This document shows positions 12,903 to 27,089 of a DNA stretch of 64,000 nt, piece after piece; the stretch's first letter is position 1; the number at the start of each line of letters is the position of its first letter. The position numbers and the translations under genes were made by a program. A model generated the notes under the pieces. That model worked only from the letters and a program-made list of their open reading frames with translations, was not told the origin of the DNA and made no database searches. This DNA is from Arcobacter venerupis (GTDB lineage: Bacteria; Campylobacterota; Campylobacteria; Campylobacterales; Arcobacteraceae). The stretch is taken from the NCBI RefSeq assembly GCF_013201665.1, contig NZ_CP053840.1, forward strand, positions 434,001 to 498,000, in the 5' to 3' direction.

Positions 12903-15083
12903 ATGTCTAAAGAAAAAATCAATCTAAATATTTCAGGAATGACTTGTGTAAATTGTTCAAATGGAATAGAAAAGGTTGTTGGTAAATTAAAAGGTTTAGA
13001 ATCTTCAAAAGTGAGTTTCGCTTCAAATGAGGGTGAATTTTATATAAATACAGAATTCTTAGATAAACAAAGTCTAATCAATAAAATAGAAAAGCTAGGT
13101 TATGGAGTTGAAGAAAATTTAGAAGCTTTAGAAAAAAGTAAATTAAAAGCATATAACAAGTTAAAAAGAGTTTTTATACTTAGTGCAACTATTGCTGTTA
13201 TTATGTTCTATTTTATGTTCTTTCCACTTGAAAATATGCAAATAAATCAATATTTGATGTTTTTTTTAGCAACAGTTGTTCAGTTTTATGCTGGTTCAAG
13301 ATTTTATATTTTGGCCTTTAAGGCTTTACGAAATAAAAATTATGATATGAATGTGTTGGTAGCTTTAGGAACAAGTGCTGCTTATTTTTATTCTGTTTTT
13401 GTAGTTTTATTCCCTTCTTTATTTCCTGAACATTTAAGATTTATCTATTTTGATGGAGCTGTTGTAATTATTACTTTTATACTTTTAGGGCGATTACTTG
13501 AAGAGCGTTCAAAAGCAAAAGCAACTGATTTTTTAAAAAAACTTATGGATTTAGCTCCTTTAAATGCAACCTTAATTTGTGAAGATGGAAGTTATAAAAC
13601 TATTTTAGCAACACAGTTAAAAGTAGGAGATAGAGTTTTAATAAAATCAGGAGAAAAAATATCAACAGATGCACTTATAAAAAAAGGTAGTGCAGATATT
13701 GATACTTCTATGATTACAGGTGAATCAATGCCTGTTTATAAAACAATAGGCGATGAGGTAATTGCAGGAACTTTAAACACTTCTGGTGTTATTGAAGTGG
13801 AAGTTTTAAAAGAGTCAAAAGATACAACACTTTCTAAAATAGTTGAGCTTTTAAGTACTGCCCAAAGTAAAAAATTACCAATTAGCAGATTTGCAGATAA
13901 AGTTGCAAATATTTTTGTACCTGCTGTTATTTTGGCTTCTGTTGTGACTTTTTTAGTTTGGTTTTTTATTGTGGGAGACACAATGGGCGCAATATTAGCT
14001 TCTATTTCTGTATTGATTATCTCTTGTCCTTGTGCTTTAGGACTTGCAACTCCAATTGCCATTGTAAGTGCTGTTGGAAAAGGTGCACATGAGGGAATTT
14101 TGATAAAAAATCCAGAAATACTAGAACTAATAAAAGATATAAAATATGCAGTATTTGATAAAACGGGAACTTTAACAACTGGAATTATTAGTGTAAAAGA
14201 TGCTCTTTATGAAGAGTCACTTTTAGATATTTTAGCTTCACTTGAAACACAAAGTGAACATCCTATTTCAAAAGCTGTGGTAAATTTTGCTAAGGCAAAA
14301 AATCTAGCTTGTGATAAAACATTTGAAGATACTCAAATCATTGCAGGGCAAGGAATAAGTGCAAGTTTTGAAGATAAAAAACTATTAATTGGAAGTCTTA
14401 GTTTTTTAGAAAAAAATGATGTTGTCCTAGAAACTAAATATTTAGAGTTTTATAATAAATCATTAAATGATGGCTCGGGAGTTATTTTGGCTTCTTTTGA
14501 TAAAAAATGTGTGGCAGTTTTTGCTTTAGCAGATACCATAAAACAAGGTGCAAAAGAGTTAATAATAAATCTAAAAGCAAAAAATATAACTCCAATTTTA
14601 TTAACAGGTGACAATGAAACTACAGCAAATAGTGTGGCAGAAAAATTAGGAATAGAAAAAGTATATGCTCAAGTTCTTCCCGATGAAAAATACAAAGTTA
14701 TAATAGAACTTCAAAAAGAAGCAAAAGTCATGTTTGTGGGTGATGGAATAAATGATTCTCCCTCTATAAAACAAGCAGATATTGGAATAACACTAAATTC
14801 AGGTTCTGATATAACAAAAGATGCGGGAGATATTATTTTAATAAATAATGATTTAAATGCAGTATTAAAAAGTATAAATTTATCAATTGAATCAATGAAG
14901 ATTATCAAACAAAATCTATTTTGGGCATTTATTTACAACGCTGCTGGAATTCCATTAGCAGCTGGTGTTTTTTTCCCGATTTTTGGAATAATGCTAAGCC
15001 CAATGTACGCAGGAATTGCCATGAGTTTTTCTTCAGTTACAGTAGTTCTAAATTCTTTGAGATTAAAACTAAAAAAAATTTAA
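12903..15083 (+). CDS. copA: Cu(I)-exporting P1B-type ATPase
   Basis: 726-residue inner-membrane pump. One N-terminal HMA domain with GMTCVNC (Cys15, Cys18), eight hydrophobic segments, the TGES actuator motif, the membrane metal site SCPCALGLATP, the phosphorylation motif DKTGTLT, the HP dipeptide (SEHPISK) and GDGINDSPS. The C-terminal helices contain YNAAGIP and MSFSSVTVVLNSLRL, which fit the Cu(I) subgroup (P1B-1) rather than Zn/Cd. It is co-transcribed with the chaperone-like protein and ArsR gene (2-bp gap), giving a complete copper detoxification unit. Confidence 0.93.
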   Translation: MSKEKINLNISGMTCVNCSNGIEKVVGKLKGLESSKVSFASNEGEFYINTEFLDKQSLINKIEKLGYGVEENLEALEKSKLKAYNKLKRVFILSATIAVIMFYFMFFPLENMQINQYLMFFLATVVQFYAGSRFYILAFKALRNKNYDMNVLVALGTSAAYFYSVFVVLFPSLFPEHLRFIYFDGAVVIITFILLGRLLEERSKAKATDFLKKLMDLAPLNATLICEDGSYKTILATQLKVGDRVLIKSGEKISTDALIKKGSADIDTSMITGESMPVYKTIGDEVIAGTLNTSGVIEVEVLKESKDTTLSKIVELLSTAQSKKLPISRFADKVANIFVPAVILASVVTFLVWFFIVGDTMGAILASISVLIISCPCALGLATPIAIVSAVGKGAHEGILIKNPEILELIKDIKYAVFDKTGTLTTGIISVKDALYEESLLDILASLETQSEHPISKAVVNFAKAKNLACDKTFEDTQIIAGQGISASFEDKKLLIGSLSFLEKNDVVLETKYLEFYNKSLNDGSGVILASFDKKCVAVFALADTIKQGAKELIINLKAKNITPILLTGDNETTANSVAEKLGIEKVYAQVLPDEKYKVIIELQKEAKVMFVGDGINDSPSIKQADIGITLNSGSDITKDAGDIILINNDLNAVLKSINLSIESMKIIKQNLFWAFIYNAAGIPLAAGVFFPIFGIMLSPMYAGIAMSFSSVTVVLNSLRLKLKKI

Positions 15084-15093
15084 AGAAACTGCT

Positions 15094-15657
15094 TTATTCA
15101 TCGCTAAACCATTTTTTATTGTAATCTTTTAAAGATTCAGGATAATATCTGTGTTTAGGGATGTTATTTATTATCACTGCAATTATTAGCAAAATAAAAG
15201 CTCCAGAAGTCACAGGAACTAAAACATATAAAAACCCCAAGTCATGTATTTGATTACTTCCAATAACTGCAATTAGGGCTGTTGCGCCACCTGGCGGATG
15301 TAAGGTAAGAGTTAATTGCATAATTAAAATGGAAGTTGAAACAGCAAAAGCTGAACATAATAGAATGTTTCCAGAAAATAATTTAAATGAAATCACTCCC
15401 ACTAATGCGGATAAAATATGTCCACCAATTAAATTTCTAGGTTGAGCAAGGGGAGAATTCACCGCTCCATAAACTAAAACAGCACTAGCTCCAAAAGAGC
15501 CAATTACTAAAGTTAAATCTTTGTCATTTAAGATATTACGATGAAAATATGAAATGGCTAATATTCCTATAAATGAAGCAATCCAAGACCAAAGAATATT
15601 TGATTTTTCCAAAGATTCTGAATTTATTTTTTTGAACTGTTTAAAAAACTTTTTCAT
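15094..15657 (-). CDS. HPP family membrane protein
   Basis: 187-residue integral membrane protein with about four or five hydrophobic segments and the family signatures GSFGASAVLVYGAVNSPLAQ (about 53-72) and LHPPGGATAL (about 118-127, the HPP motif). Some HPP proteins have been linked to nitrite transport in plastids and cyanobacteria; the role here is unknown. It converges with copA, with a 10-bp gap and no obvious terminator between. Confidence 0.85.
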   Translation of the reverse strand: MKKFFKQFKKINSESLEKSNILWSWIASFIGILAISYFHRNILNDKDLTLVIGSFGASAVLVYGAVNSPLAQPRNLIGGHILSALVGVISFKLFSGNILLCSAFAVSTSILIMQLTLTLHPPGGATALIAVIGSNQIHDLGFLYVLVPVTSGAFILLIIAVIINNIPKHRYYPESLKDYNKKWFSDE

Positions 15658-15733
15658 TTACAAACTTTTAATTTAAATTAAAGTTATAGTATCAAAAAGT
15701 TTAAAGTAGATGATTGATTTGAGTCAAGATTAA

Positions 15734-15763
15734 TTTTATAAGAAGATAGTTCTTCTTATAAAA
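15734..15763 (-). terminator. hairpin at the end of the glycosyltransferase gene
   Basis: Perfect 13-bp stem TTTTATAAGAAGA / TCTTCTTATAAAA with loop TAGT, overlapping the stop codon of the minus-strand gene. The trailing tract on that strand is short, so termination strength is uncertain. Confidence 0.6.
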
Positions 15764-16868
15764 TATTTAGTTGGTGAGCTAAATCGTCAGCAATTCTTTT
15801 ATAGTTTCTTACATCAAGAAGTCTTTTTTGACCATTAATTCCAACTTGTGCCACTTCCTCTTTTGATAGTGAAATAATATATTCAAGTTTTTCTTTTATT
15901 GATTGTTCATCAAAGTTTGTAAACCAAGCACTAACATTGTCTTCAAAAATTGAAGCATTATTTTCATTATTACTCATAATACAAGGAACGGCACTTGAAT
16001 AATAATCTAAAACTTTCATAGGGGTTGAACTATTAAATAGTGCAATATCTGGAAGTGGTGATAATCCAACATCTGCAAGTGCAATAAGTTCCAATAACTC
16101 ATTTCTTGTTTTTGCATCATGAATTTCAATATTATCTCTTAGATTTGAAAATTCATTTAATAAATCATCTAAATATTCAGGGTCTTTTGTTGAAATCATT
16201 AGTTTATAATTTGAACTACTAATATTACTAAATGCTTCTAAAATAGTTTCAAACTCTCTTAATTTATCAAGAGTTCCTGCATAAAAGAATCTTTTTTCGC
16301 TTCCTTCATGCTGAATGTTACTTTGTAAAACATCTGGGTCAATTGCCGATGGAATTACAAAAGTTCTAATTTTTACATCTTTGAAATAATCATTTTTCAT
16401 TTGAAAAGAAGTTGGTAAAAAAATATCACACTCATTTATAAGATAAATTTCTGAATAAGTTTGAATTTTATTACTTATAACATCAAAAAGTGTTTTTTTA
16501 TTATTAGCTTCATCCGTTTGAAGTTTTGCAATTCTTTTAGGAAAAGATAATCTAAAGCCAACTTTGAAATTATATTTTTCTTTTTGTTTTAAAACTTCTT
16601 TTAATAAATCCGTAGAATTTCTAATTACAACAAATTGATATTCGTATAAATCTATTCCACTGTTTGATAATTCTTTGATAATATTATTTTTTAGATTTTC
16701 TGGAATTATGATTCTACCATCATCTTCTATTTCAATCTTTGTTTTAACTTTTGAAAAATAAGTTGTGTTTATATCAAAATGTTTAGTTAAATATTTTTGA
16801 AATAAAGGGCCAATAAAACTATGGTCTGTGTATTCATCTTGATCAGTAATATATAAAAACTTGCTCAT
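15756..16868 (-). CDS. glycosyltransferase-like protein (GT-B fold, family 4 type)
   Basis: 370 residues. The C-terminal half looks like a GT4-type donor domain: RFFYAGTLDKLREFETILEA, then ALADVGLSPLPD and TPMKVLDYYSSAVPCIMSN, where family members bind the nucleotide-sugar. The N-terminal acceptor half is not distinctive. No signal peptide, so it is probably cytoplasmic or membrane-associated. It stands alone with its own AAAGGAG ribosome site and no neighbouring polysaccharide genes, so the product cannot be predicted. Confidence 0.78.
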   Translation of the reverse strand: MSKFLYITDQDEYTDHSFIGPLFQKYLTKHFDINTTYFSKVKTKIEIEDDGRIIIPENLKNNIIKELSNSGIDLYEYQFVVIRNSTDLLKEVLKQKEKYNFKVGFRLSFPKRIAKLQTDEANNKKTLFDVISNKIQTYSEIYLINECDIFLPTSFQMKNDYFKDVKIRTFVIPSAIDPDVLQSNIQHEGSEKRFFYAGTLDKLREFETILEAFSNISSSNYKLMISTKDPEYLDDLLNEFSNLRDNIEIHDAKTRNELLELIALADVGLSPLPDIALFNSSTPMKVLDYYSSAVPCIMSNNENNASIFEDNVSAWFTNFDEQSIKEKLEYIISLSKEEVAQVGINGQKRLLDVRNYKRIADDLAHQLNIL

Positions 16869-16947
16869 GTATAACTCCTTTAAAATTTTCTAAAAAATTT
16901 TAGCATTAAAGTGTCGCAACAAAAAAGCATTTAAAAAAAGATTAAGT

Positions 16948-17439
16948 TTAGTAGAGTTTCCCAAATAAATCAACATGGGTTAAATAGACTCGCAAATCAA
17001 ATTCAACTTGATGATAAGAGGGCATCATAAAGGTGCAAAGATTGTAAAAAGCTTTGTCATGCTCTTTTTCTTTGAAGTGAGCAAGTTCATGTACAACAAT
17101 CATTTGTAAGAACTCTTCAGGCATGTTTTTAAAAACTGAGGCAACTCTTATTTCATTTTTTGATTTTAGTTTTCCACCTTGAACCCTCGAAACAATTGAG
17201 TGCATTCCCAAAGCATTGTTGATTACATTTATTTTTCCATCATACATTACTTTTGAAACTTGATGTTTTTTAAAATATTCGTTTTTGAAATCCATCACAT
17301 AAGAGTATAAAGTTTTGTCATTTGTAAAGCTGTGAGCGTTTGGATATTTTGTTTTTATGTATGATGATAGTTTTTCTTTTTCTATCAAAACTTTGATTTT
17401 ATCTTGTAAATCTTTTGGGTAGTGGTTTAGGTATTTCAT
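16948..17439 (-). CDS. YgjP-type metallopeptidase domain protein
   Basis: 163-residue protein with the zinc motif HELAH at 117-121 and a third histidine at 127 (HELAHFKEKEH), the layout of the YgjP/WLM (formerly DUF45) group. No signal peptide or membrane segment. Family members are thought to be soluble peptidases; the substrate is unknown. It follows the last gene of the unknown four-gene cluster by only 22 bp and may be co-transcribed with it. Confidence 0.82.
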   Translation of the reverse strand: MKYLNHYPKDLQDKIKVLIEKEKLSSYIKTKYPNAHSFTNDKTLYSYVMDFKNEYFKKHQVSKVMYDGKINVINNALGMHSIVSRVQGGKLKSKNEIRVASVFKNMPEEFLQMIVVHELAHFKEKEHDKAFYNLCTFMMPSYHQVEFDLRVYLTHVDLFGKLY

Positions 17440-17461
17440 GGGCGAATTATAACTTATTGTG

Positions 17462-18775
17462 CTATAACGCTTCCTTATTAAGAAAACTACTACTTAAAAA
17501 GTCTTTATCTTCTTTTGATTCTTTTCCATCCCCAAACAAATATTTCAACATAAGTTCCTCTTTACTTAAAACTTCTTTATTCTCTTTTTTTGTATTAGTT
17601 TTATTACTTGTTAAATCTATATCATTATATTTTTGAGTAAATTGTGTTGTATCTAAATATTGAGATTCATATTCTTCCTTTTTATGAGCCATTGCTTCTG
17701 TTGTTTTTGCATCTTTCCACTCTTTTATCCAACCATTTTTTTCAGTCCCAAAGTTTTCACTTTGTTTTACATCATAAAATGAACCATTTTGATAATCTAT
17801 TGATAAAACTAAATCTGGTACTGAATCAAATCCATTTCTTGCAAGTTTTGCCAACGCTGCTCCATCTGAAGCTATACTCATCTGTTTTGTAAAATCAGAC
17901 TTATTTGGATTTTCATTAATCTTTTTTGTATATATTTCAAATACATCTGTTCCATCTTCTGTTACAAACTTTCCATCTTTTATTTCTAAATCTTTTAAGT
18001 TATAACCTGTTACATCTTTTATATTTTGAACTAAACCATATTTTGAAGATGATTCTGCATTATATTGTGTTGAATCATCTGAACGACTTGAACTAATATG
18101 TAAAAATAATTGTTTTGCATTATCAGCAGTATTTATAACATCTTCAATAGATTTAGTAAGAGTTTCATCATCAGTTCCAGTAACAGTTGCTTTTAGAGTA
18201 TTTGGGTCAATGGTAAATGAAAGTTTAGTATCTTGTGGAATTGAGATATTATATTTATCTAACAAAGATTGAAATTGTTCATTCACTTTTTCTCTATCGT
18301 ATGCTTTTCTTTCTGCTACATCTACATCACCTAAAATTGGTGTTTCATCTCTTAAAATTGCATCTGCGTAAGCAAACATTTTTCTGTCTTTTAAATAGTG
18401 TATTTCTGTACTATAAGCAATATCTCTTTCTTGTTTAGTTAATCCTTGTACATAATAAGGTGATGAAGTATTTTTATATTTATCAAAAATATGGTTATAA
18501 GGATAATCAAATTTCTTATTTTCTTCATTCATTTTTGAATAATGTTCTTCTAAGATTTTAACTTGTCTTGCTTCTTCTGGATTTACATAACCATTTCTAG
18601 CTTGAATAACAGTCTCTTCTTCTAATGATTCACTATTTGAACTTATATCTATACTAACTGAATCAGTTAATTTTTTTGTTTGAGTAGTAAAACTACTTTC
18701 TGCTTGTGAGCTTTGAGTTACTTTTATTGCCCCATTTAACGAGCTAAATGATTGTGTATTTGAGTTTATAGTCAT
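17462..18775 (-). CDS. unknown protein, mosaic tandem paralogue A
   Basis: 437 residues, no cysteine, no signal peptide. The Ser/Thr/Gln-rich N-terminus (MTINSNTQSFSSLNG) resembles that of proteins exported by flagellar or type I routes, but this is only an impression. Residues 1-65 are identical to paralogue B; about 66-150 are diverged; about 152-355 are nearly identical; then come diverged and conserved patches up to a unique tail. The middle (KLSFTIDPNTLKATVTGTDD) reminds me of DUF4885, not verified. Start supported by AGGGAG and by identity with the paralogue. Confidence 0.8.
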   Translation of the reverse strand: MTINSNTQSFSSLNGAIKVTQSSQAESSFTTQTKKLTDSVSIDISSNSESLEEETVIQARNGYVNPEEARQVKILEEHYSKMNEENKKFDYPYNHIFDKYKNTSSPYYVQGLTKQERDIAYSTEIHYLKDRKMFAYADAILRDETPILGDVDVAERKAYDREKVNEQFQSLLDKYNISIPQDTKLSFTIDPNTLKATVTGTDDETLTKSIEDVINTADNAKQLFLHISSSRSDDSTQYNAESSSKYGLVQNIKDVTGYNLKDLEIKDGKFVTEDGTDVFEIYTKKINENPNKSDFTKQMSIASDGAALAKLARNGFDSVPDLVLSIDYQNGSFYDVKQSENFGTEKNGWIKEWKDAKTTEAMAHKKEEYESQYLDTTQFTQKYNDIDLTSNKTNTKKENKEVLSKEELMLKYLFGDGKESKEDKDFLSSSFLNKEAL

Positions 18776-18805
18776 GATTACTCCCTTTATTCTTTCAACT
18801 TTATC

Positions 18806-20134
18806 TTAATTCTTAAGTGAAGTATTATTTATTTGATTCTTCTCATTATCTTCTTTTGATTCTTTTCCATCCCCAAACAAATATTTCAACATAAGTTCCT
18901 CTTTACTTAAAACTTCTTTATTGTCTTTTTTTGTATTATTTTTATTATTTGTTAAATCAATATCATCATATTTTTTAGTAAATTGTGTTGTATCTGAATA
19001 GTCAGATTCAGTCATAGAATCAGCTCCTTGCGATTTTTTTTTATCAAAAAGTGCTTCTTTCCACTCTTTAATCCAACCACTTTTTTGGGTTCCAAAATTT
19101 TCACTTTGTTTTACATCATAAAATGAACCATTTTGATAATCTATTGATAAAACTAAATCTGGCACTGAATCAAATCCATTTCTTGCAAGTTTTGCCAACT
19201 CTGCTCCATCTGAACCTAGAGTCATCTGTTTTGTAAAATCAGACTTATTTGGATTTTCATTAATCTTTTTTGCATATATTTCAAATACATCTGTTCCATC
19301 TTCTGTCACGAACTTTCCATCTTTTATTTCTAAATCTTTTAAGTTATAACCTGTTACATCTTTTATATTTTGAACTAAACCATATTTTGAAGATGATTCT
19401 GCATTATATTGTGTTGAATCATCTGAACGACTTGAACTAATATGTAAAAATAGTTGTTTAGCATTATCAGCAGTATTTATAACATCTTCAACTGATTTAG
19501 CAAGAGTTTCATCATCAGTTCCAGTAACAGTTGCTTTTAGAGTATTTGGGTCAATGGTAAATGAAAGTTTAGTATCTTGTGGAATTGAGATATTATATTT
19601 ATCTAACAAAGATTGAAATTGTCCATTTACTTTTTCTCTATCGTATGCTTTTCTTTCTGCTGTTTCTATAACTCCACCTGATACTGGTCCACCTGATTTA
19701 AAAATAGGGTCATCTTTTAACATTAAATTACCATTATCTTTTCCATTTCTTTGGAAGCGGAGTTCATTAGTATATGCAGCATTTCTTTCTTCTTTAGTTA
19801 ACCCTTGTATATAATAAGGAGAAGAAGTATTCTTATATTTATCCCAAATATGATTATAAGGATTTTCGAATTGATTATTTTCTTCAACAGCACTTGAATA
19901 GTATTCCCGCATAATTTTAATTCGTGCTTCTTTTTCTTCATTTACGTAACCATTTCTAGCTTGAATAACTGTCTCTTCTTCTAATGATTCACTATTTGAA
20001 CTTATATCTATACTAACTGAATCAGTTAATTTTTTTGTTTGAGTAGTAAAACTACTTTCTGCTTGTGAGCTTTGAGTTACTTTTATTGCCCCATTTAACG
20101 AGCTAAATGATTGTGTATTTGAGTTTATAGTCAT
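18806..20134 (-). CDS. unknown protein, mosaic tandem paralogue B
   Basis: 442 residues from the ATG at 20134, chosen over the in-frame ATG at 20155 because AGGGAG lies before it and paralogue A begins identically. No cysteine or signal peptide. It shares a near-identical N-terminus and core with the next gene, but its region 66-155 carries a different sequence, including a Gly-rich SGGPVSGGV stretch, and its tail differs. Conserved motifs across both copies: YKNTSSPYY, AERKAYDREKVN and EELMLKYLFGDGKESKED. Last but one in a cluster of four similar-style genes. Confidence 0.8.
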   Translation of the reverse strand: MTINSNTQSFSSLNGAIKVTQSSQAESSFTTQTKKLTDSVSIDISSNSESLEEETVIQARNGYVNEEKEARIKIMREYYSSAVEENNQFENPYNHIWDKYKNTSSPYYIQGLTKEERNAAYTNELRFQRNGKDNGNLMLKDDPIFKSGGPVSGGVIETAERKAYDREKVNGQFQSLLDKYNISIPQDTKLSFTIDPNTLKATVTGTDDETLAKSVEDVINTADNAKQLFLHISSSRSDDSTQYNAESSSKYGLVQNIKDVTGYNLKDLEIKDGKFVTEDGTDVFEIYAKKINENPNKSDFTKQMTLGSDGAELAKLARNGFDSVPDLVLSIDYQNGSFYDVKQSENFGTQKSGWIKEWKEALFDKKKSQGADSMTESDYSDTTQFTKKYDDIDLTNNKNNTKKDNKEVLSKEELMLKYLFGDGKESKEDNEKNQINNTSLKN

Positions 20135-20155
20135 GATTACTCCCTTTTTATGCAT

Positions 20156-20336
20156 AATATAGTTTTCTTACTGCTTGATTATAATTTTTTTGAAATAATC
20201 ATAACCATCAACTATTTGTCTATTTAATTGAGAAGTTCTAAGATTTTTATCAATATGTATATCCTTATTTGATACTTATAAAACTTGCATTTATATCTTT
20301 AGCATATGTTCATCTTTAGTTTACTTTTTAAATATA
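20156..20336. other. 181-bp non-coding gap
   Basis: AT-rich spacer between paralogue B and the 246-residue gene. A short open stretch without a start codon is present on the minus strand, but I see no RNA gene, clear promoter box or terminator. Confidence 0.4.
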
Positions 20337-21077
20337 TTAAGAATTACTCTTTATTTCATTATGTTTTTTTTGAAGAATTATAAAATCATTTAATAATTTT
20401 TGATACAACTTTCTATCTTCCTCTGAGATAACAGGATTTTTAACCAGTTCATAATACTCTTTTACTATTGCTTCCATAAATTTTTTATAATCTGATATTT
20501 CCCAATTCTCTTTTGTAGAGTTTTTTCTAAGTTCTGGATTATCTCTTTGGGGAATTAAACATCTTTTATCATTCCAACCCAAATTAGCAGATAATCTATC
20601 AAAAAAATATAACATTTCTATTTGTTCGTCAATTGTTTGAACTGTTTCAAATACAGCCTTATTAAAATCTTCATTATCAGTCATTTTTGTAGCTGTAAAC
20701 ATTGCACCAATTTTAATATCTGTACTTTTCACAAGAGGAATTTTATCAGCAGATATGCCACTTCCATAAAGTGCAGAATCTAAAAAATCTCCAAGTTTTT
20801 TAACTTGTTCAAAACTCAAACTTTGTATTTCTGCTAGTGTAAAATAATCATCAGCTAAAATATCTCTAAATATTCTTTCTTCTGTTGGTGATAGAGATGA
20901 AAAACTTGTATATTTATCAATAAAAGCTACAACTCTAAATGTTTCTTTTTTTTCTGTTGTTTCTTCTATTTGAGTATTTAAAAGTGTAGCAAATGAGTTA
21001 TTACTATTTTGTGTTGTTGAAGTTTGTGATGATGATATAGTTGAATAAGGATTACTATTTGTTGATAATATTTCCAT
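20337..21077 (-). CDS. unknown protein with a low-complexity N-terminus
   Basis: 246 residues. The first 35 are Ser/Asn/Thr/Gln-rich (MEILSTNSNPYSTISSSQ), with a single Cys in the whole chain. The rest is a helical soluble domain (LSPTEERIFRDILADDYFTLAEIQSL, MTDNEDFNKAVFETVQTIDEQIEML). I do not recognise a family. The N-terminal style matches its three neighbours, suggesting a shared export route or partner. Own ribosome site (AAGGGGAG) 4-6 bp upstream. Confidence 0.75.
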   Translation of the reverse strand: MEILSTNSNPYSTISSSQTSTTQNSNNSFATLLNTQIEETTEKKETFRVVAFIDKYTSFSSLSPTEERIFRDILADDYFTLAEIQSLSFEQVKKLGDFLDSALYGSGISADKIPLVKSTDIKIGAMFTATKMTDNEDFNKAVFETVQTIDEQIEMLYFFDRLSANLGWNDKRCLIPQRDNPELRKNSTKENWEISDYKKFMEAIVKEYYELVKNPVISEEDRKLYQKLLNDFIILQKKHNEIKSNS

Positions 21078-21113
21078 TTTACTCTCCCCTTTTTAATTCT
21101 TTTCTTTTTCTTA

Positions 21114-21704
21114 TTAACTCATTTTTAATAACAATTTTAATTTATCATAAGCTTTATCCTCATTAGAATTATCATCACGATTTATGTTTTTTGGATTATT
21201 TTGTATCTCTTGAAGCATATCTTTTATATTCATAATAGCTGTATCAAAATCAAATGCTCCAATATCTTGAGCTGAATTATTTGATTGAGTTGTATTCTCA
21301 TCTGCTTTTTGTATAACTTGCCCACTAACTCTTTTTTTAGCTTCTTGTATTTCAAGAGTTAATTTTTTTAAAGCAGTTTCTATTTCTTCATTAGTTGATT
21401 TATTATCATCTTTCATCTTTAGAATTTCTTTTAATTTTTCTTCAAATCCTTTTAACTCTCCAACAGTAAAACCTGTTTTAAGTAAAGAAATTATGTCCTC
21501 GTAAAGACTTTGAGTTGAAGGTTCTTCTTTTATAACTTCGTCATTTTCTTTATTTACAAAAGTTTTTTCTTCATTAGCTGTTTTTGAAGAAATTAAACTT
21601 TCAAATGCATCATTTTTTTCTTTATTAACATTATGATTTTTATTTGAATTACTATAATCTTGACTATTTGAACCTAGTGTTGATATTAGACTTGAAGTGT
21701 TCAT
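21114..21704 (-). CDS. unknown helical protein, first gene of the cluster
   Basis: 196 residues from the ATG at 21704, preferred over an upstream in-frame ATG at 21770 because AAAGGGGA lies 6 bp before it and MNTSSLISTLGSN matches the style of the neighbouring N-termini. Very charged, Asn/Lys/Glu-rich, no cysteine. A helical section (KGFEEKLKEILKMKDDNKST...IETALKKLTLEIQEAKKR, about 83-123) is a probable coiled coil. The length and Ser/Asn-rich start recall flagellar hook-length or export-type proteins, but no diagnostic motif is present. Function unknown. Confidence 0.7.
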   Translation of the reverse strand: MNTSSLISTLGSNSQDYSNSNKNHNVNKEKNDAFESLISSKTANEEKTFVNKENDEVIKEEPSTQSLYEDIISLLKTGFTVGELKGFEEKLKEILKMKDDNKSTNEEIETALKKLTLEIQEAKKRVSGQVIQKADENTTQSNNSAQDIGAFDFDTAIMNIKDMLQEIQNNPKNINRDDNSNEDKAYDKLKLLLKMS

Positions 21705-21865
21705 ATTTTCCCCTTTACTTTTATAACTGTATTTCTTATTATACTTTTTTAGTATCACAAATAGTGTCACATTATAAAGATATTTTATTATTTATATAAA
21801 TTAGGTTAAATAAAATATTGGAATTGAAAATAGGGATTGAAGATTTATGAGGATGAAAAATCTAA

Positions 21866-21890
21866 ATAAAAAAAGAGAATTAAATCTCTT
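21866..21890 (-). terminator. intrinsic terminator of the dynamin-like gene pair
   Basis: On the minus strand AAGAGA-TTTAAT-TCTCTT is followed by seven T in eight positions; it overlaps the stop codon of the second GTPase gene. Confidence 0.75.
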
Positions 21891-23907
21891 CTTTTATTTT
21901 TTCTAAATCTTTAATTTTATCAAGATATTGTTCTTTTTTTGATTTTACAAAATTTATTCTATCTTCATTTATCTCTAAGTATTGCTCTTTTGAGTATTTT
22001 ACTATTTTAAACAGATAGTTTCTTTTTGAAGTTAAGAAATCTTCAATTTTCTCAAATGCAAAATTTGCTTTTAATTTTCCAACGATTTCATCTTCTCTTG
22101 GGTGAGAGATAGAAAATCTTGTTGGCTCTTTTTTATATAACTCTTCAGATTCAGATATTTGTTGTTCAAAGTGGCTAATAGTCGCTTGTGTAGTTTGAAT
22201 ATAAGAATATGATAAGGCTCCATTGAAGTAAGCGAATTTTTTTCTTAATGCAGATATATTTTCTAAAATAGCTGTATGGTATGTTTTTAAAACATTTTCA
22301 TATACTTTTGCAGCAAAGTGTCTTGTATTTGAAAATTCTAAATCTGAAGCAATTTCTCTGTGTTTTCTAAGAAGTTCATATGGTTCTTGCCATTTTCTAA
22401 CTTCATTATTAATTAGATTGTATACATCTTTGAAAGATTCATCTGTGTTTAGTTCAATATTTTTTAATAGTTTAATTGACCTTTTAAACATTTTATCAAT
22501 AGTTTGGTCATCATAAAATAGGCTTTTATAAATTGCATCTGAATCAATCCAAAATGTTTCATATTGGAATTTTTCTATTTTCCCACCTAAGAAACTTTTT
22601 GATTCTTCAAATCTAAAAGCTGGTTTTCTTTTAATATTTTTGTATGTTTCATGGGCAATTTTTTCCATAATTGTTTCTAATGAGTTATAAATATTAAATA
22701 ACTCTTTTGAATATTTTTTCTGAATATTTTCAAATTGTTCAATAACTTTTGGTTCACAAGCTTTTAATACATCAATTAAAACATCATAAACTTTTGTAAT
22801 TGTTTCATACTCTTTAGAAAGAATATCACAAATGCCTCTTAAATCTTTTTTAATTGCAAACTCTTTTGTTTCTGCTGCTTGTGGTCTAATTGTATTTTCA
22901 ATAAATTCCAGAACTTGGTTGATATTAGATTCTTTTAAAAGTTTCATATCTCCTGACATATCTTTTGTGTTAATTTCACTAATTTTTTTGTGGAATTCTT
23001 CAAATCTATCTTGGAAAAAATCTAAAGTAGAAACACCAATATTTTTATTTAGTTCAGTTTTAAACTCTTTTGTAATAGCTTCAAATGAATCATCAAGTAA
23101 TACTCTTTTTTGATGTGCTCTTGATTCCAGTGCCATTTTTGCAGAAATAGGAGTAACTTGTGCAAAATATTTCCCAAATTTTTCAGTTACGTATTTTGTA
23201 GTTGTTTCAACTTGCTCAGGAGTTAACTTATCTTTTTGATTTAAAACACATAAAGATTTGTTTTTAAAGTGTTGCATATACTCTTCTAAAACTTCTGCTT
23301 CTGAAAGTTTTCCTGCATTATCAATAAGAGTTAACCAAATAATTCCTCCAACATCTCTTAGAACTTTTCTAGTTGTATCAGTATCACTTTGAGATTGAGA
23401 GTTAAGTCCTGGTGTATCAACAAATGAAATATCTTTTAAAATATCCATAGGAGCATAAAGGGTAAGATATTTTATATCTTTCATTTCGTGTTGTCTTTGA
23501 TCTGTAAAATCAGCAATTGCTTCTATTGGAGCAAATTCTTGAGCACCTGAATAATATGTAATTTTTAGTTTATACTCTTCTCCATAATTTATAAAGTTTA
23601 CCTTTGAAGTAACTGGTGTAATTCCTGTTGGAAGTACATTCCTTGCAAGTAAAGCATTTAAAAATGTAGATTTTCCAGAAGAAAATTGTCCTGTAATTGC
23701 AATTTCAATTGGGTATCTAGCTCGTCTAATTTGTTTATTTAAAATACCAACAAGTTGATTTGAAGGTAGGAATTTTTCATCCAAAAGTTTAGCTTGAACT
23801 TTTTTTATGTCTCCTACTAATCCCTCTTCATAAACTATTTCGTGAATTGTATATGTTTCTTTATACTCAGTTACAAAACTTTTTAGGATATTAAAATTTG
23901 CACTCAT
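21880..23907 (-). CDS. bacterial dynamin-like GTPase, second of pair (DLP2-like)
   Basis: 675 residues. GTPase domain near the N-terminus: G1 GQFSSGKS (73-80), G2-type Thr in TGITPVTSKV, G3 DTPG (164-167), G4 NQKD (223-226). Long helical regions follow, as in bacterial dynamin-like proteins that tether or remodel membranes, including a possible membrane-contact segment near AYFNGALSYSYIQ. It corresponds by order to C. jejuni Cj0412 (DLP2), whose pairing with DLP1 has been described structurally. The start codon overlaps the stop of the first GTPase by 1 bp, pointing to fixed stoichiometry. Confidence 0.9.
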   Translation of the reverse strand: MSANFNILKSFVTEYKETYTIHEIVYEEGLVGDIKKVQAKLLDEKFLPSNQLVGILNKQIRRARYPIEIAITGQFSSGKSTFLNALLARNVLPTGITPVTSKVNFINYGEEYKLKITYYSGAQEFAPIEAIADFTDQRQHEMKDIKYLTLYAPMDILKDISFVDTPGLNSQSQSDTDTTRKVLRDVGGIIWLTLIDNAGKLSEAEVLEEYMQHFKNKSLCVLNQKDKLTPEQVETTTKYVTEKFGKYFAQVTPISAKMALESRAHQKRVLLDDSFEAITKEFKTELNKNIGVSTLDFFQDRFEEFHKKISEINTKDMSGDMKLLKESNINQVLEFIENTIRPQAAETKEFAIKKDLRGICDILSKEYETITKVYDVLIDVLKACEPKVIEQFENIQKKYSKELFNIYNSLETIMEKIAHETYKNIKRKPAFRFEESKSFLGGKIEKFQYETFWIDSDAIYKSLFYDDQTIDKMFKRSIKLLKNIELNTDESFKDVYNLINNEVRKWQEPYELLRKHREIASDLEFSNTRHFAAKVYENVLKTYHTAILENISALRKKFAYFNGALSYSYIQTTQATISHFEQQISESEELYKKEPTRFSISHPREDEIVGKLKANFAFEKIEDFLTSKRNYLFKIVKYSKEQYLEINEDRINFVKSKKEQYLDKIKDLEKIKEEI

Positions 23908-26261
23908 TAGTGTAATCCTTTTATTGTTGTAGAAATGTTCTCAAGTTTTTTAATATTTTTATGAATATCAATAGATAACTGAGCTTTATTTTTATCATTT
24001 TCTTCAAATGAACTGATTTGATTTTTAAGAAGTTCTTCATCATTTTTAAGTTTTTGCTCAAAAGTTCGTAAAGGAGCATTTAAAGTTGCAAAGAAAGATT
24101 CAATTAATAATGAACTAACTTTTTTAGCTTTTGCTTTAATATCTTCTTCAATTGAAGTAAATTGGTTTTTTATTAAAAGTTCAACTTCCCTGTCAAGTTC
24201 ACTTAATTTTGCTTCTTTTGCTTTTGAAACAGCATCAATAACTAAAGAAATTAAAACCTCATTATTAGATGTTAAAAAACCTGCTTTAAAATCATCTTGG
24301 AAAAATCCTCTAGCATCAAAGTTATCATTTTTATGTCCAATTGTAAAACCTAAATCATGATATTTTTGTTCACATTGTTCACCAATAGTTTGAGATTTTT
24401 TGATAAATTTATATCTATAATCTCTAATAACATCAATAATTCCATCTTTAATTGCAGTCTCAACAATAACTTTTATTCTTGAATTTTCAGGTCTTTTTTT
24501 TGTTTTTTCAAAAGAGTATCTTACATCTCCCACAACTCTTTTTTTAATCACATTTTGAAGTTCTAAAAGTTCACTTTGTAAAAATGTTTCTAGGGAATCT
24601 ATGTAAGCTTTTGAGTCATTTTTATAGTAATTAATATCTTCATTCATAGCTTGAAAAATTCTAGTATTTACTACTTTTTTCTTGTTGAAATCTTGAAGTT
24701 CTTTTTCCAATTCATCTTTTGATTTTGATAAAAGTTTTAATTCATAGTTGTAAAAAGAAGTTTGTTTTTCAAGTATTTTTTGTAATTGATTTTTAGATGA
24801 TTGAATTACAAGTTCACCTTTTTGTGAATTTGAACCAAATAAGGTTTCATTTAGATATTTCTCAATTTCTAAAATTCCTGTATCTTCAAGTGTATATCCA
24901 GCATCAAGAGCTTCTTGTTCTCGTCCAGTTCTATGTAATAGTGCCATTCTTCCAGAAATAGGAATAAATTTGATAGTTTTTAAAATATAATCAAGTTGAG
25001 AATCTTTATTTTGAGCTCTTAACTGTTTTTCTATTGAAGATTTTGTATAGTTAATAACTTCTTCAAGTTGCTCTTTTGAAACAGTATCAGCTCGCGTAAT
25101 TACAACTAAAAGTTTTGAGATATTTTGGTAAAGTAGGGCATCAATAATAAACTCAACATCTTTTAGTGTTGCACTTTGAGATACATTCATAAGATGTAAC
25201 ATCATGTCACAAGCACTGATATACTCTTTTGTAATCTCTTCCCTTTGAATAACTGGGTCATCAAGGCCTGGTGTGTCAACTATCTCAATTCCATCACTTA
25301 AAAAATCAAGTTGAGAACCAAGTTCAACATATTTTACAAGATTACATTTTTTACCACTTGCTTCTGCTGATGTATAAGATGATAAGTCATTAATATCAAC
25401 TTCATCAAATCTAGAAACAGGTTTTATATAATTTTGTAGTTCATCCCCAAAGATTTTGTTTGTTTCATTCACAAACTCTTTCATTGATTCAAGTTGTTCT
25501 GCTGATTTTAAAATTCTATCCCACTCATGAGTATTCCAATAAAAAACTTTTGCATTATCAGTTGGATTGTATTTAACTATAGTTAAATTTGCAGTTTCAG
25601 GAACAACAGCGCTTCCAAGAATCTCTCGTCCCATTAAAGCATTTAACATTGTTGATTTACCCGCATTCATAACACCAGTAATTCCAATAGAGAACTTTTG
25701 ATTATTTAGATAATTTTTTGTTGTTTCTAATTCATCTAAAATTTCTTGATTTGTTAAATCAACTTTTATATCAGCTATTAATTTTTCTACAGTAGATTTT
25801 AAATCTTTAAATGAATTTTTTACTATTTTATCATTTATTGAATCAGCATTAATTGTATTATCATCTTCTTGAAGATTTAACTCTTTTGAATCAAATAAAG
25901 ATATTAATTTTGTATAGTTTTCATTATTTAATATTGCTTCTTGTTTTAGATACTCAAAAGATGAGTGTAAAATAGATACATTTAGTTTTGATTTATTTAA
26001 AAGAATTGTTTCAAGAATATTATGTTGTAAATGATTTAATTCATTAATATTTGAAGGACTTTTAACCTTTATTTGTTGACATAAAGTTTTGAATGAAGTA
26101 AGTGGTAAATACTTGTCAAAATTTTTTCTAGTTGCACTTAATATTAATGCAAAAATTGTAAATATTTCTTTATCTAGGTCTAAATCCATAGGTTCTATAT
26201 CTAAATTTTGTTCAAATGTAATACCATGATATAGTAAGAAATAATCGTTTGTTAAACTCAT
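23907..26261 (-). CDS. bacterial dynamin-like GTPase, first of pair (DLP1-like)
   Basis: 784 residues. About 190 N-terminal residues of helical extension precede the GTPase domain, as in the larger partner of the Campylobacter pair: G1 GVMNAGKS (196-203), Thr of G2 in VVPETANLT, G3 DTPGLDDP, G4 TRAD. The rest is helical with coiled-coil stretches (LKLLSKSKDELEKELQDF; SSFEENDKNKAQLSI). It likely works with the downstream GTPase as a heteromer on membranes. It lies 96 bp after frdB, separated by a hairpin, with its own GGGAG ribosome site. Confidence 0.9.
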   Translation of the reverse strand: MSLTNDYFLLYHGITFEQNLDIEPMDLDLDKEIFTIFALILSATRKNFDKYLPLTSFKTLCQQIKVKSPSNINELNHLQHNILETILLNKSKLNVSILHSSFEYLKQEAILNNENYTKLISLFDSKELNLQEDDNTINADSINDKIVKNSFKDLKSTVEKLIADIKVDLTNQEILDELETTKNYLNNQKFSIGITGVMNAGKSTMLNALMGREILGSAVVPETANLTIVKYNPTDNAKVFYWNTHEWDRILKSAEQLESMKEFVNETNKIFGDELQNYIKPVSRFDEVDINDLSSYTSAEASGKKCNLVKYVELGSQLDFLSDGIEIVDTPGLDDPVIQREEITKEYISACDMMLHLMNVSQSATLKDVEFIIDALLYQNISKLLVVITRADTVSKEQLEEVINYTKSSIEKQLRAQNKDSQLDYILKTIKFIPISGRMALLHRTGREQEALDAGYTLEDTGILEIEKYLNETLFGSNSQKGELVIQSSKNQLQKILEKQTSFYNYELKLLSKSKDELEKELQDFNKKKVVNTRIFQAMNEDINYYKNDSKAYIDSLETFLQSELLELQNVIKKRVVGDVRYSFEKTKKRPENSRIKVIVETAIKDGIIDVIRDYRYKFIKKSQTIGEQCEQKYHDLGFTIGHKNDNFDARGFFQDDFKAGFLTSNNEVLISLVIDAVSKAKEAKLSELDREVELLIKNQFTSIEEDIKAKAKKVSSLLIESFFATLNAPLRTFEQKLKNDEELLKNQISSFEENDKNKAQLSIDIHKNIKKLENISTTIKGLH

Positions 26262-26281
26262 TTTAAATCTCCCAAAAATAT

Positions 26282-26317
26282 AAAAAGTTAAATATCACTT
26301 ATGATATTTAACTTTTT
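26282..26317 (-). terminator. long hairpin between frdB and the dynamin-like genes
   Basis: Perfect 15-bp stem AAAAAGTTAAATATC / GATATTTAACTTTTT, loop 6, ending in TTTTT on the minus strand. It lies just before the ribosome site of the first GTPase gene, so it can end frd transcripts or reduce read-through into the GTPases. Confidence 0.7.
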
Positions 26318-26331
26318 ATATTTATTATATT

Positions 26332-26353
26332 AACGAAGGAAAAATCCTTCGTT
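26332..26353 (-). terminator. second hairpin behind frdB
   Basis: Perfect 9-bp stem AACGAAGGA / TCCTTCGTT with AAAA loop, 4 bp after the frdB stop. Without a T-run itself; may act as an RNA 3'-end stabiliser in tandem with the longer hairpin. Confidence 0.5.
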
Positions 26354-26357
26354 ATAA

Positions 26358-27089
26358 CTATCTAAGTGCTACTAGTTTTCTTCTTAAGTAAGCGATTTTA
26401 TTTTGTAATGGTAAGTGTTTTGGACAATGGTCTTCACACGCCATTAAAGACATACAACCAAATATTCCATTATCATCACCAATTAATTCATAAAAATCTT
26501 CTGCACTTCTTTTATCATGTGGATCTACTTCAAATCTTGCAACTCTATTTAATCCAACAGGTCCCACAAAATCTGGTCTCATTAATGCTGTCCCACAAGA
26601 AGCAACACAAATACCACATTCAATACATCTATCTAATTCAAATGTCTCATTTGCTACATCTGGATCGATTCTATCTTCTAATTTTGAAATGTTTACTTCA
26701 TGGTCATTATGAATCCATGATTCAACTCTTTTTGACATACTATCCATCCATTTACCAGTATTAACAGATAAATCTTTGATTAGTTCAAATGCAGGCATAG
26801 GCATTAATTGTAATTTACCACTTGGGTAATTAGCAATTAAAGTTCTACAAGCAAGAGTTGGTTTACCATTTACAACCATTCCACAACTTCCACAAATTCC
26901 AGCACGACAAACAAAGTCAAAAGATAAATCAGCATCTTTTTCTTCTCTAATTTTCATTAAAGCAATGAAAAGAGTCATACCTGGAGTTTCTTCTAAATGA
27001 TAATCAACAAAGTGAGGTTTAGAAACCTTACTTCTTGGATTGAATTTTAAAACTGATATTGTAATATCTCTACCTTTTTCAATACTCAT
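26358..27089 (-). CDS. frdB: fumarate reductase iron-sulfur subunit
   Basis: 243-residue electron-transfer subunit between FrdA and the di-heme FrdC. [2Fe-2S] ligands Cys61, 66, 69 and 81 (CRAGICGSC...C). The [4Fe-4S] and [3Fe-4S] clusters are bound by [12 protein letters not shown] and [13 protein letters not shown]. The sequence is of the Wolinella/Campylobacter type. It overlaps frdA by 1 bp. Works at the cytoplasmic face in fumarate respiration with menaquinol, and in Campylobacterota the same enzyme often also serves as succinate dehydrogenase. Confidence 0.96.

Follow-up and report, generated by a model that had tools for sequence, protein, structure and literature searches.

Homogenised frames and separately inherited variable blocks in a tandem pair of DUF4885 genes from Arcobacter venerupis

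Two adjacent minus-strand genes of Arcobacter venerupis, here called gB and gA, encode DUF4885 paralogues. Block-wise silent distances and conflicting trees show that the constant frames of the two genes have been homogenised with each other, while their variable blocks have kept separate histories common to other species. The genes lie in a window of 64,000 nucleotides, the whole stretch of DNA that was analysed (contig NZ_CP053840.1, positions 434,001 to 498,000), and positions below refer to that window. On balance we lean toward reading gA and gB as accessory proteins of the flagellar regulon, putatively exported, with a polymorphic helical subdomain that gene conversion, acting block by block, and interspecies exchange keep re-dealing.

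Block architecture of the two genes

The features discussed here are as follows.

17440..21879 (region): four-gene islet, flanked by the genes of a YgjP-type metalloprotease and of a dynamin-like protein
17462..18775, minus: gB, downstream DUF4885 paralogue, open reading frame of 437 aa; PF16226, 337 bits
17504..17623, minus: gB constant C-terminal block, residues 385-424; 95.8% nucleotide identity and dS 0.05 to gA
17624..17716, minus: gB variable block 2, residues about 354-384; 62.4% nucleotide identity to gA, 88.2% to the upstream copy of related genome G022 (G022up)
17717..18325, minus: gB constant core, residues 151-353; 95.9% nucleotide identity and dS 0.10 to gA
18326..18583, minus: gB variable block 1, residues 65-150, of a type common to G022up by nucleotide identity, dS and AU test
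18584..18775, minus: gB constant block N, residues 1-64; 99.0% nucleotide identity to gA 19943-20134
18806..20134, minus: gA, upstream DUF4885 paralogue, open reading frame of 442 aa; PF16226, 321 bits
18845..18964, minus: gA constant C-terminal block, from the block alignment with gB
18965..19060, minus: gA variable block 2; closest relative the Aliarcobacter cibarius plasmid copy (85.4% nucleotide identity)
19061..19669, minus: gA constant core, from the block alignment with gB
19670..19942, minus: gA variable block 1; closest relative the A. cibarius plasmid copy, cibP (75.2% nucleotide identity, support 99/99)
19943..20134, minus: gA constant block N, from the block alignment with gB
20337..21077, minus: neighbouring gene of cluster c2, a family without a name, 246 aa; Pfam and NCBIfam give nothing above the cut-off
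21114..21704, minus: neighbouring gene of cluster c9, likewise without a named family; fourth in the window for N-terminal S/T/N/Q content

Both proteins match the Pfam profile PF16226 (DUF4885; gathering cut-off 34.4 bits) over positions 21-325 of its 325. gA starts at the homologous ATG at 20134, and there is an additional in-frame ATG at 20155. Together with the two upstream ORFs, the pair makes up a block of four minus-strand genes. In genome G014 the metalloprotease and dynamin-like genes lie about 40 bp apart, i.e. the site is empty, and in G022 a single c2-like ORF stands between them; the four-gene block is thus missing at the same site in both genomes, which marks it as an islet. No tRNA was found within 14000-27000.

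The first-pass annotation had placed two adjacent ORFs of 437 and 442 residues at these positions and described alternating identical and diverged blocks with unique tails, the identity holding at the DNA level; amino acid and nucleotide alignments bear out each of these points. At the protein level, identity runs from 100% in block N, where the only two nucleotide differences are both synonymous, through 48.8% in variable block 1 (67.8% at the nucleotide level), 94.1% in the core and 41.9% in variable block 2, to 90% in the C-terminal block. Both variable blocks contain indels, and the tails beyond the C-terminal block are unrelated. The middle part had been given as 96% identical, a figure that stands for the DNA and is too high for the protein. 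Block N is an S/T/N/Q-rich, disordered N-terminus in gB, and the identity reaches about 14 bp further upstream, into the ribosome-binding site. Sliding windows along the alignment reveal sharp steps in identity, which excludes the smoothly distributed divergence that would have spoken against a mosaic. The longest run of identity between gA and gB extends over 71 of the 566 sites that are polymorphic in six homologues; such a run was reached in 0 of 20,000 shuffles, so the clustering of differences is far from chance.

A protein search of the genome (3.21 Mb, one contig) finds only gA and gB and no third copy, and a DNA search of the genome for silent cassettes of variable block 1 returns gA, gB and one stretch of 40 bp. 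In silent-cassette antigenic variation, e.g. pilin systems, a constant frame carries exchangeable variable segments. The present genes are alike in both respects but exist as only two full, expressed-looking copies with no cassette library, which falls short of demonstrating the likeness to antigen- or partner-variation systems suggested at first pass.

In the AlphaFold model of gA (mean pLDDT 71.5), residues 52-370 are ordered and residues 1-51 are predicted to be disordered. Variable block 1 forms the N-terminal helical part (66-130) and a loop (131-153); an alpha/beta core follows, and then a long helix that runs into a linker (372-406), which is disordered and contains variable block 2. 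A fold search of the DUF4885 model against the PDB and viral structures gave nothing above background, and a second search with VIA-align reached a best Z of 3.9, with no convincing match. FlaG (PF03646), suspected from the hairpin-helix pattern, received an hhalign probability of 1.4% in a comparison of shallow alignments (four FlaG sequences).

Recombination between and beyond the two genes

From the N- to the C-terminal block, dS between gA and gB is 0.05, 0.59, 0.10, 0.27 and 0.05 (Nei-Gojobori distances, the short-block values resting on 18-56 synonymous sites). Between gB and G022up the same series reads 0.46, 0.16, 0.33, 0.18 and 0.60, a mirror image of the first. Because the contrast between gA and gB sits at silent sites, it points to recombination and not to selection alone. 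In the variable blocks dN/dS is raised and mostly below 1, a range that falls short of demonstrating diversifying selection.

The trees of the blocks disagree accordingly. For variable block 1, the A. cibarius plasmid copy is the partner of gA (support 99/99), and gB joins G022up, to which it is 87.6% identical in nucleotides, on a branch that is not strong (80/94); the AU test rejects a gA+gB clade with p 3.7e-6. The constant blocks place gA and gB together with support of 100/100, and here the AU test rejects gB+G022up with p 6e-43. Within the conserved tracts gA and gB are closer to each other than to their orthologues, and elsewhere the trees conflict, as concerted evolution by gene conversion would have it.

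G022 also carries a tandem DUF4885 pair, with the variable-block types in the opposite order; the downstream copy there combines an A-like block 1 with a block 2 that is nearer the B type. With one genome compared per species, the median dS between the host genome (G000) and G022 is 0.57 over ten genes, the flanking genes and recQ included; two of the ten are DUF4885 genes and one is c2, and the other seven range from 0.33 to 0.72. Set against this median, the dS of 0.16-0.18 in the variable blocks of gB and G022up means that the exchange of these blocks most likely postdates the species split. Most simply, an A-type sequence would have overwritten gB in block N, in the core and in the C-terminal block.

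We consider less likely, though it survives best among the alternatives, a history in which gB arrived as a ready-made chimera, or in which a recently duplicated gA received B-type variable segments, with no conversion in place. DUF4885 genes do pass from species to species and to plasmids, the islet is a recent addition at its site, and the variable blocks of gA are likewise nearest to a plasmid copy. Such an arrival would, however, need the import of two separate variable tracts, and G022 has the same A/B tandem in the opposite order. The frames of gA and gB differ by a dS of only 0.05-0.10, versus at least 0.16 to any other sequence found, which argues that the frames met recently in one lineage.

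A second, independent mosaic was found in Bacillus. The tandem DUF4885 pair of B. safensis (L084) is 100% identical in nucleotides over residues 25-46, 78.6% over 47-99 and 95-96% over 100-285, the variable stretch corresponding to about residues 82-142 of gA. In copy 2 the variable block and its B. australimaris counterpart share 98.7% identity, with a dS of 0.03 against 0.20 and 0.29 in the core; between copy 2 of B. altitudinis, which ends at a contig edge, and B. xiamenensis, the variable block has a dS of 0.07 and the core one of 0.29. Since the variable block is more alike than the core between these species, the block itself was passed between species in that group. The species compared are closely related and are taken together as a single replicate; with it, the mosaic is shown to have arisen at least twice, in Arcobacteraceae and in Bacillus. 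The first-pass annotation had offered gene conversion of constant parts or cassette-like exchange of variable parts; block dS, conflicting trees and the Bacillus replicate support both.

Gene conversion between tandem flagellin genes is known from flaA/flaB of Campylobacter. Concerted evolution of constant parts is common to both cases; the variable parts of gA and gB differ in being kept distinct, and are common to other species.

The family and its link to the flagellum

Scanning genome contigs for DUF4885 with a single protein as query gave no match; a family-alignment query did, and placed the family in Bacillus, Lysinibacillus, Sporosarcina, Viridibacillus and Clostridia. Most Bacillota members, the YbdO-type proteins of the Bacillus group among them, are 38-49% identical to gA (Anaerocolumna, 29%). 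Distribution is patchy: 13 of 100 relatives (weak partial matches included), 17 of 397 genomes of the phylum and 11 of 249 Bacillus-order genomes have a copy, with broken copies in several genomes. A literature search for the DUF4885 name returned no match, and the function is undescribed there. Two copies sit on Aliarcobacter plasmids; that of A. cibarius pACIB (L071) has a group II intron maturase gene on either side and a Tn3 transposase close by, with a frameshifted gene of family c1 (below) as its neighbour. In three longer members of 473-499 aa (L053, L056, L059), profile region 209-293 is repeated in part at the C-terminal end.

B. subtilis, the control genome, holds a DUF4885 gene, and in one Bacillus-order genome a c1-DUF4885 pair lies at 215 kb, a position by which we take the pair to be ybdN-ybdO of B. 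subtilis. The ybdO gene thus probably belongs to the family; it is listed under SigD and AbrB control (PMC6323116; PMC5200910). Upstream of DUF4885, a perfect TAAA-N16-CCGATAT, a promoter of sigma-28/SigD type, is present in Alkaliphilus, Viridibacillus and Bacillus sp. CECT 9360, sigma-28 sites with one mismatch in the B. pumilus group, and TAAA-N13/15-CCGATAT in two Campylobacterales loci. The Arcobacteraceae copies differ from the YbdO type in that they have a C-terminal extension and no sigma-28 consensus upstream (the best score for gA and gB is no better than for shuffles), and the tandem mosaic is not reported for the YbdO type. The Arcobacteraceae copies (L051-L058, L071, L072) have in common a TTAAACTAATATTAAGAA-like element, conserved some 25-35 bp ahead of the ATG, that is possibly their promoter type in place of sigma-28. 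It does not clearly recur before flagellin genes at 13 loci, for four of which the upstream region was misextracted. We note that the host genome has flhA and flagellins. Co-occurrence with flhA was discarded as flagellar evidence: all 29 DUF4885 genomes have the gene, but so do 31 of 32 Bacillales without DUF4885, and it has no discriminating power. Taken as a whole, DUF4885 is an accessory family of patchy occurrence with a probable tie to the flagellar regulon.

The protein start, MTINSN or MRINTN (MxINTN), is flagellin-like, and no Sec signal is visible. The S/T/N/Q fraction over residues 2-41 is 0.54 versus 0.24 in control ORFs, leader statistics that are slightly inflated because for some homologues the start site was picked by its pattern. 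Among window ORFs of at least 100 aa, the four contiguous ORFs at 17462-21770 rank first to fourth for N-terminal S/T/N/Q, with c2 the highest, and pLDDT is below 50 for gA residues 1-51, which describes an unstructured polar N-terminal leader. From the flagellin-like start, the disordered leader, the missing Sec signal and the SigD/sigma-28 promoters of other taxa, we suggest that gA and gB probably leave the cell via the flagellar type III apparatus.

In the reading that we favour, two old classes of variable block, each an N-terminal helical subdomain with its loop and a C-terminal linker, are carried in near-identical frames. The constant blocks would supply an export leader and a common scaffold. 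Outside the cell the core would do a common job and the variable subdomain would bind a polymorphic partner, with block 1, together with block 2, supplying specificity. The identical flanks around the variable blocks should be good substrates for homologous recombination, which would homogenise the frames and move variable blocks between copies; transfer on plasmids or islets would then allow exchange between species. Carrying two types and re-dealing a block may broaden or change specificity. A wider version, which we regard as speculative, sees a recognition system spanning phyla, in which tandem allelic exoproteins of the flagellar regulon have a subdomain re-dealt via identical flanks for partner or self/non-self specificity.

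The accessory, flagellum-dependent secreted proteins Fed, Cia and FspA of Campylobacter are co-expressed with flagellin, and FspA occurs in two isoforms among isolates (PMC5223770). DUF4885 resembles them as an accessory protein of obscure biochemical function; no sequence similarity was shown, and secretion is only putative for DUF4885. Naming the polymorphic part of the protein and tying the family to flagellar control turns an unknown domain into a testable problem, for which Bacillus is an easy laboratory model. If the export reading is true, the flagellum of motile bacteria ships an unstudied, diversified recognition protein.

It is doubtful that DUF4885 is instead a cytoplasmic factor of the flagellar regulon, such as a regulator, chaperone or filament-length factor. 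SigD control would suit one, as many SigD-regulon proteins are intracellular; the flagellin-like start, the long S/T/N/Q-rich disordered leader and the genomic pairing with c1, a protein bearing a Sec-type signal peptide, are at odds with it, and patchy distribution and polymorphism are unusual for housekeeping factors.

Neighbouring genes and the remaining alternatives

The c1 family (e.g. L052:9810-10691 and L080:3870-4745) comprises proteins of about 285 residues with a signal-peptide-like N-terminus, encoded about 110-220 bp from DUF4885. The orientation is divergent, except for one Clostridia locus, where both genes are on the same strand, and one convergent Arcobacteraceae locus. It stands beside DUF4885 in most Bacillota loci and in about half of the Arcobacteraceae loci, and most pairs of members are 48-56% identical across phyla. 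No Pfam or NCBIfam family matches it; a double beta-sandwich is predicted, in which one part is like the collagen-binding/PPC domain of ColG (TM 0.70 on target). YbdN, the putative B. subtilis member, is in use as a donor of a Sec signal peptide (PMC5142396). In Campylobacterota and Bacillota alike, DUF4885 is often adjoined by this family, which has a Sec-type signal peptide and no name. Seven of the 100 relatives have c1, all seven with DUF4885. It is absent from the host genome and G022, and several other genomes that retain DUF4885 have it frameshifted, broken or lost; c1 is therefore not a required immunity or chaperone gene.

This pattern makes it quite improbable that the genes form a polymorphic toxin or interbacterial competition system with c1 as the immunity gene in relatives, since an immunity gene would not tolerate such losses. 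A variable domain framed by constant blocks, alleles in tandem, islets of patchy occurrence and a conserved divergent neighbour do recall such systems, but the variable part is internal and not C-terminal, neither the DUF4885 pair nor its neighbours nor c1 matched a toxin or defence family in the PADLOC and Pfam searches, and the DUF4885 model gave no fold match to a toxin. Ordinary duplication, with purifying selection on constant blocks and relaxed or diversifying selection on variable ones and no recombination, draws on the core being one of the family's better conserved parts and is very improbable, because silent sites alternate likewise (dS 0.05 to 0.59), block trees and AU tests contradict it, and the N-terminal block, identical here, is one of the less conserved parts between species (61-83% aa).

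A phage origin of the DUF4885 pair was considered and rejected: there was no phage record or PHROG match, and only two weak hits to viral contigs. Relatives of c2 occur near DUF4885 genes in other Arcobacteraceae (L051, L057, L058, L070). Beside the islet, at 21880-26261, stand two adjacent dynamin-like GTPases, which occupy the same site in G014 and G022.
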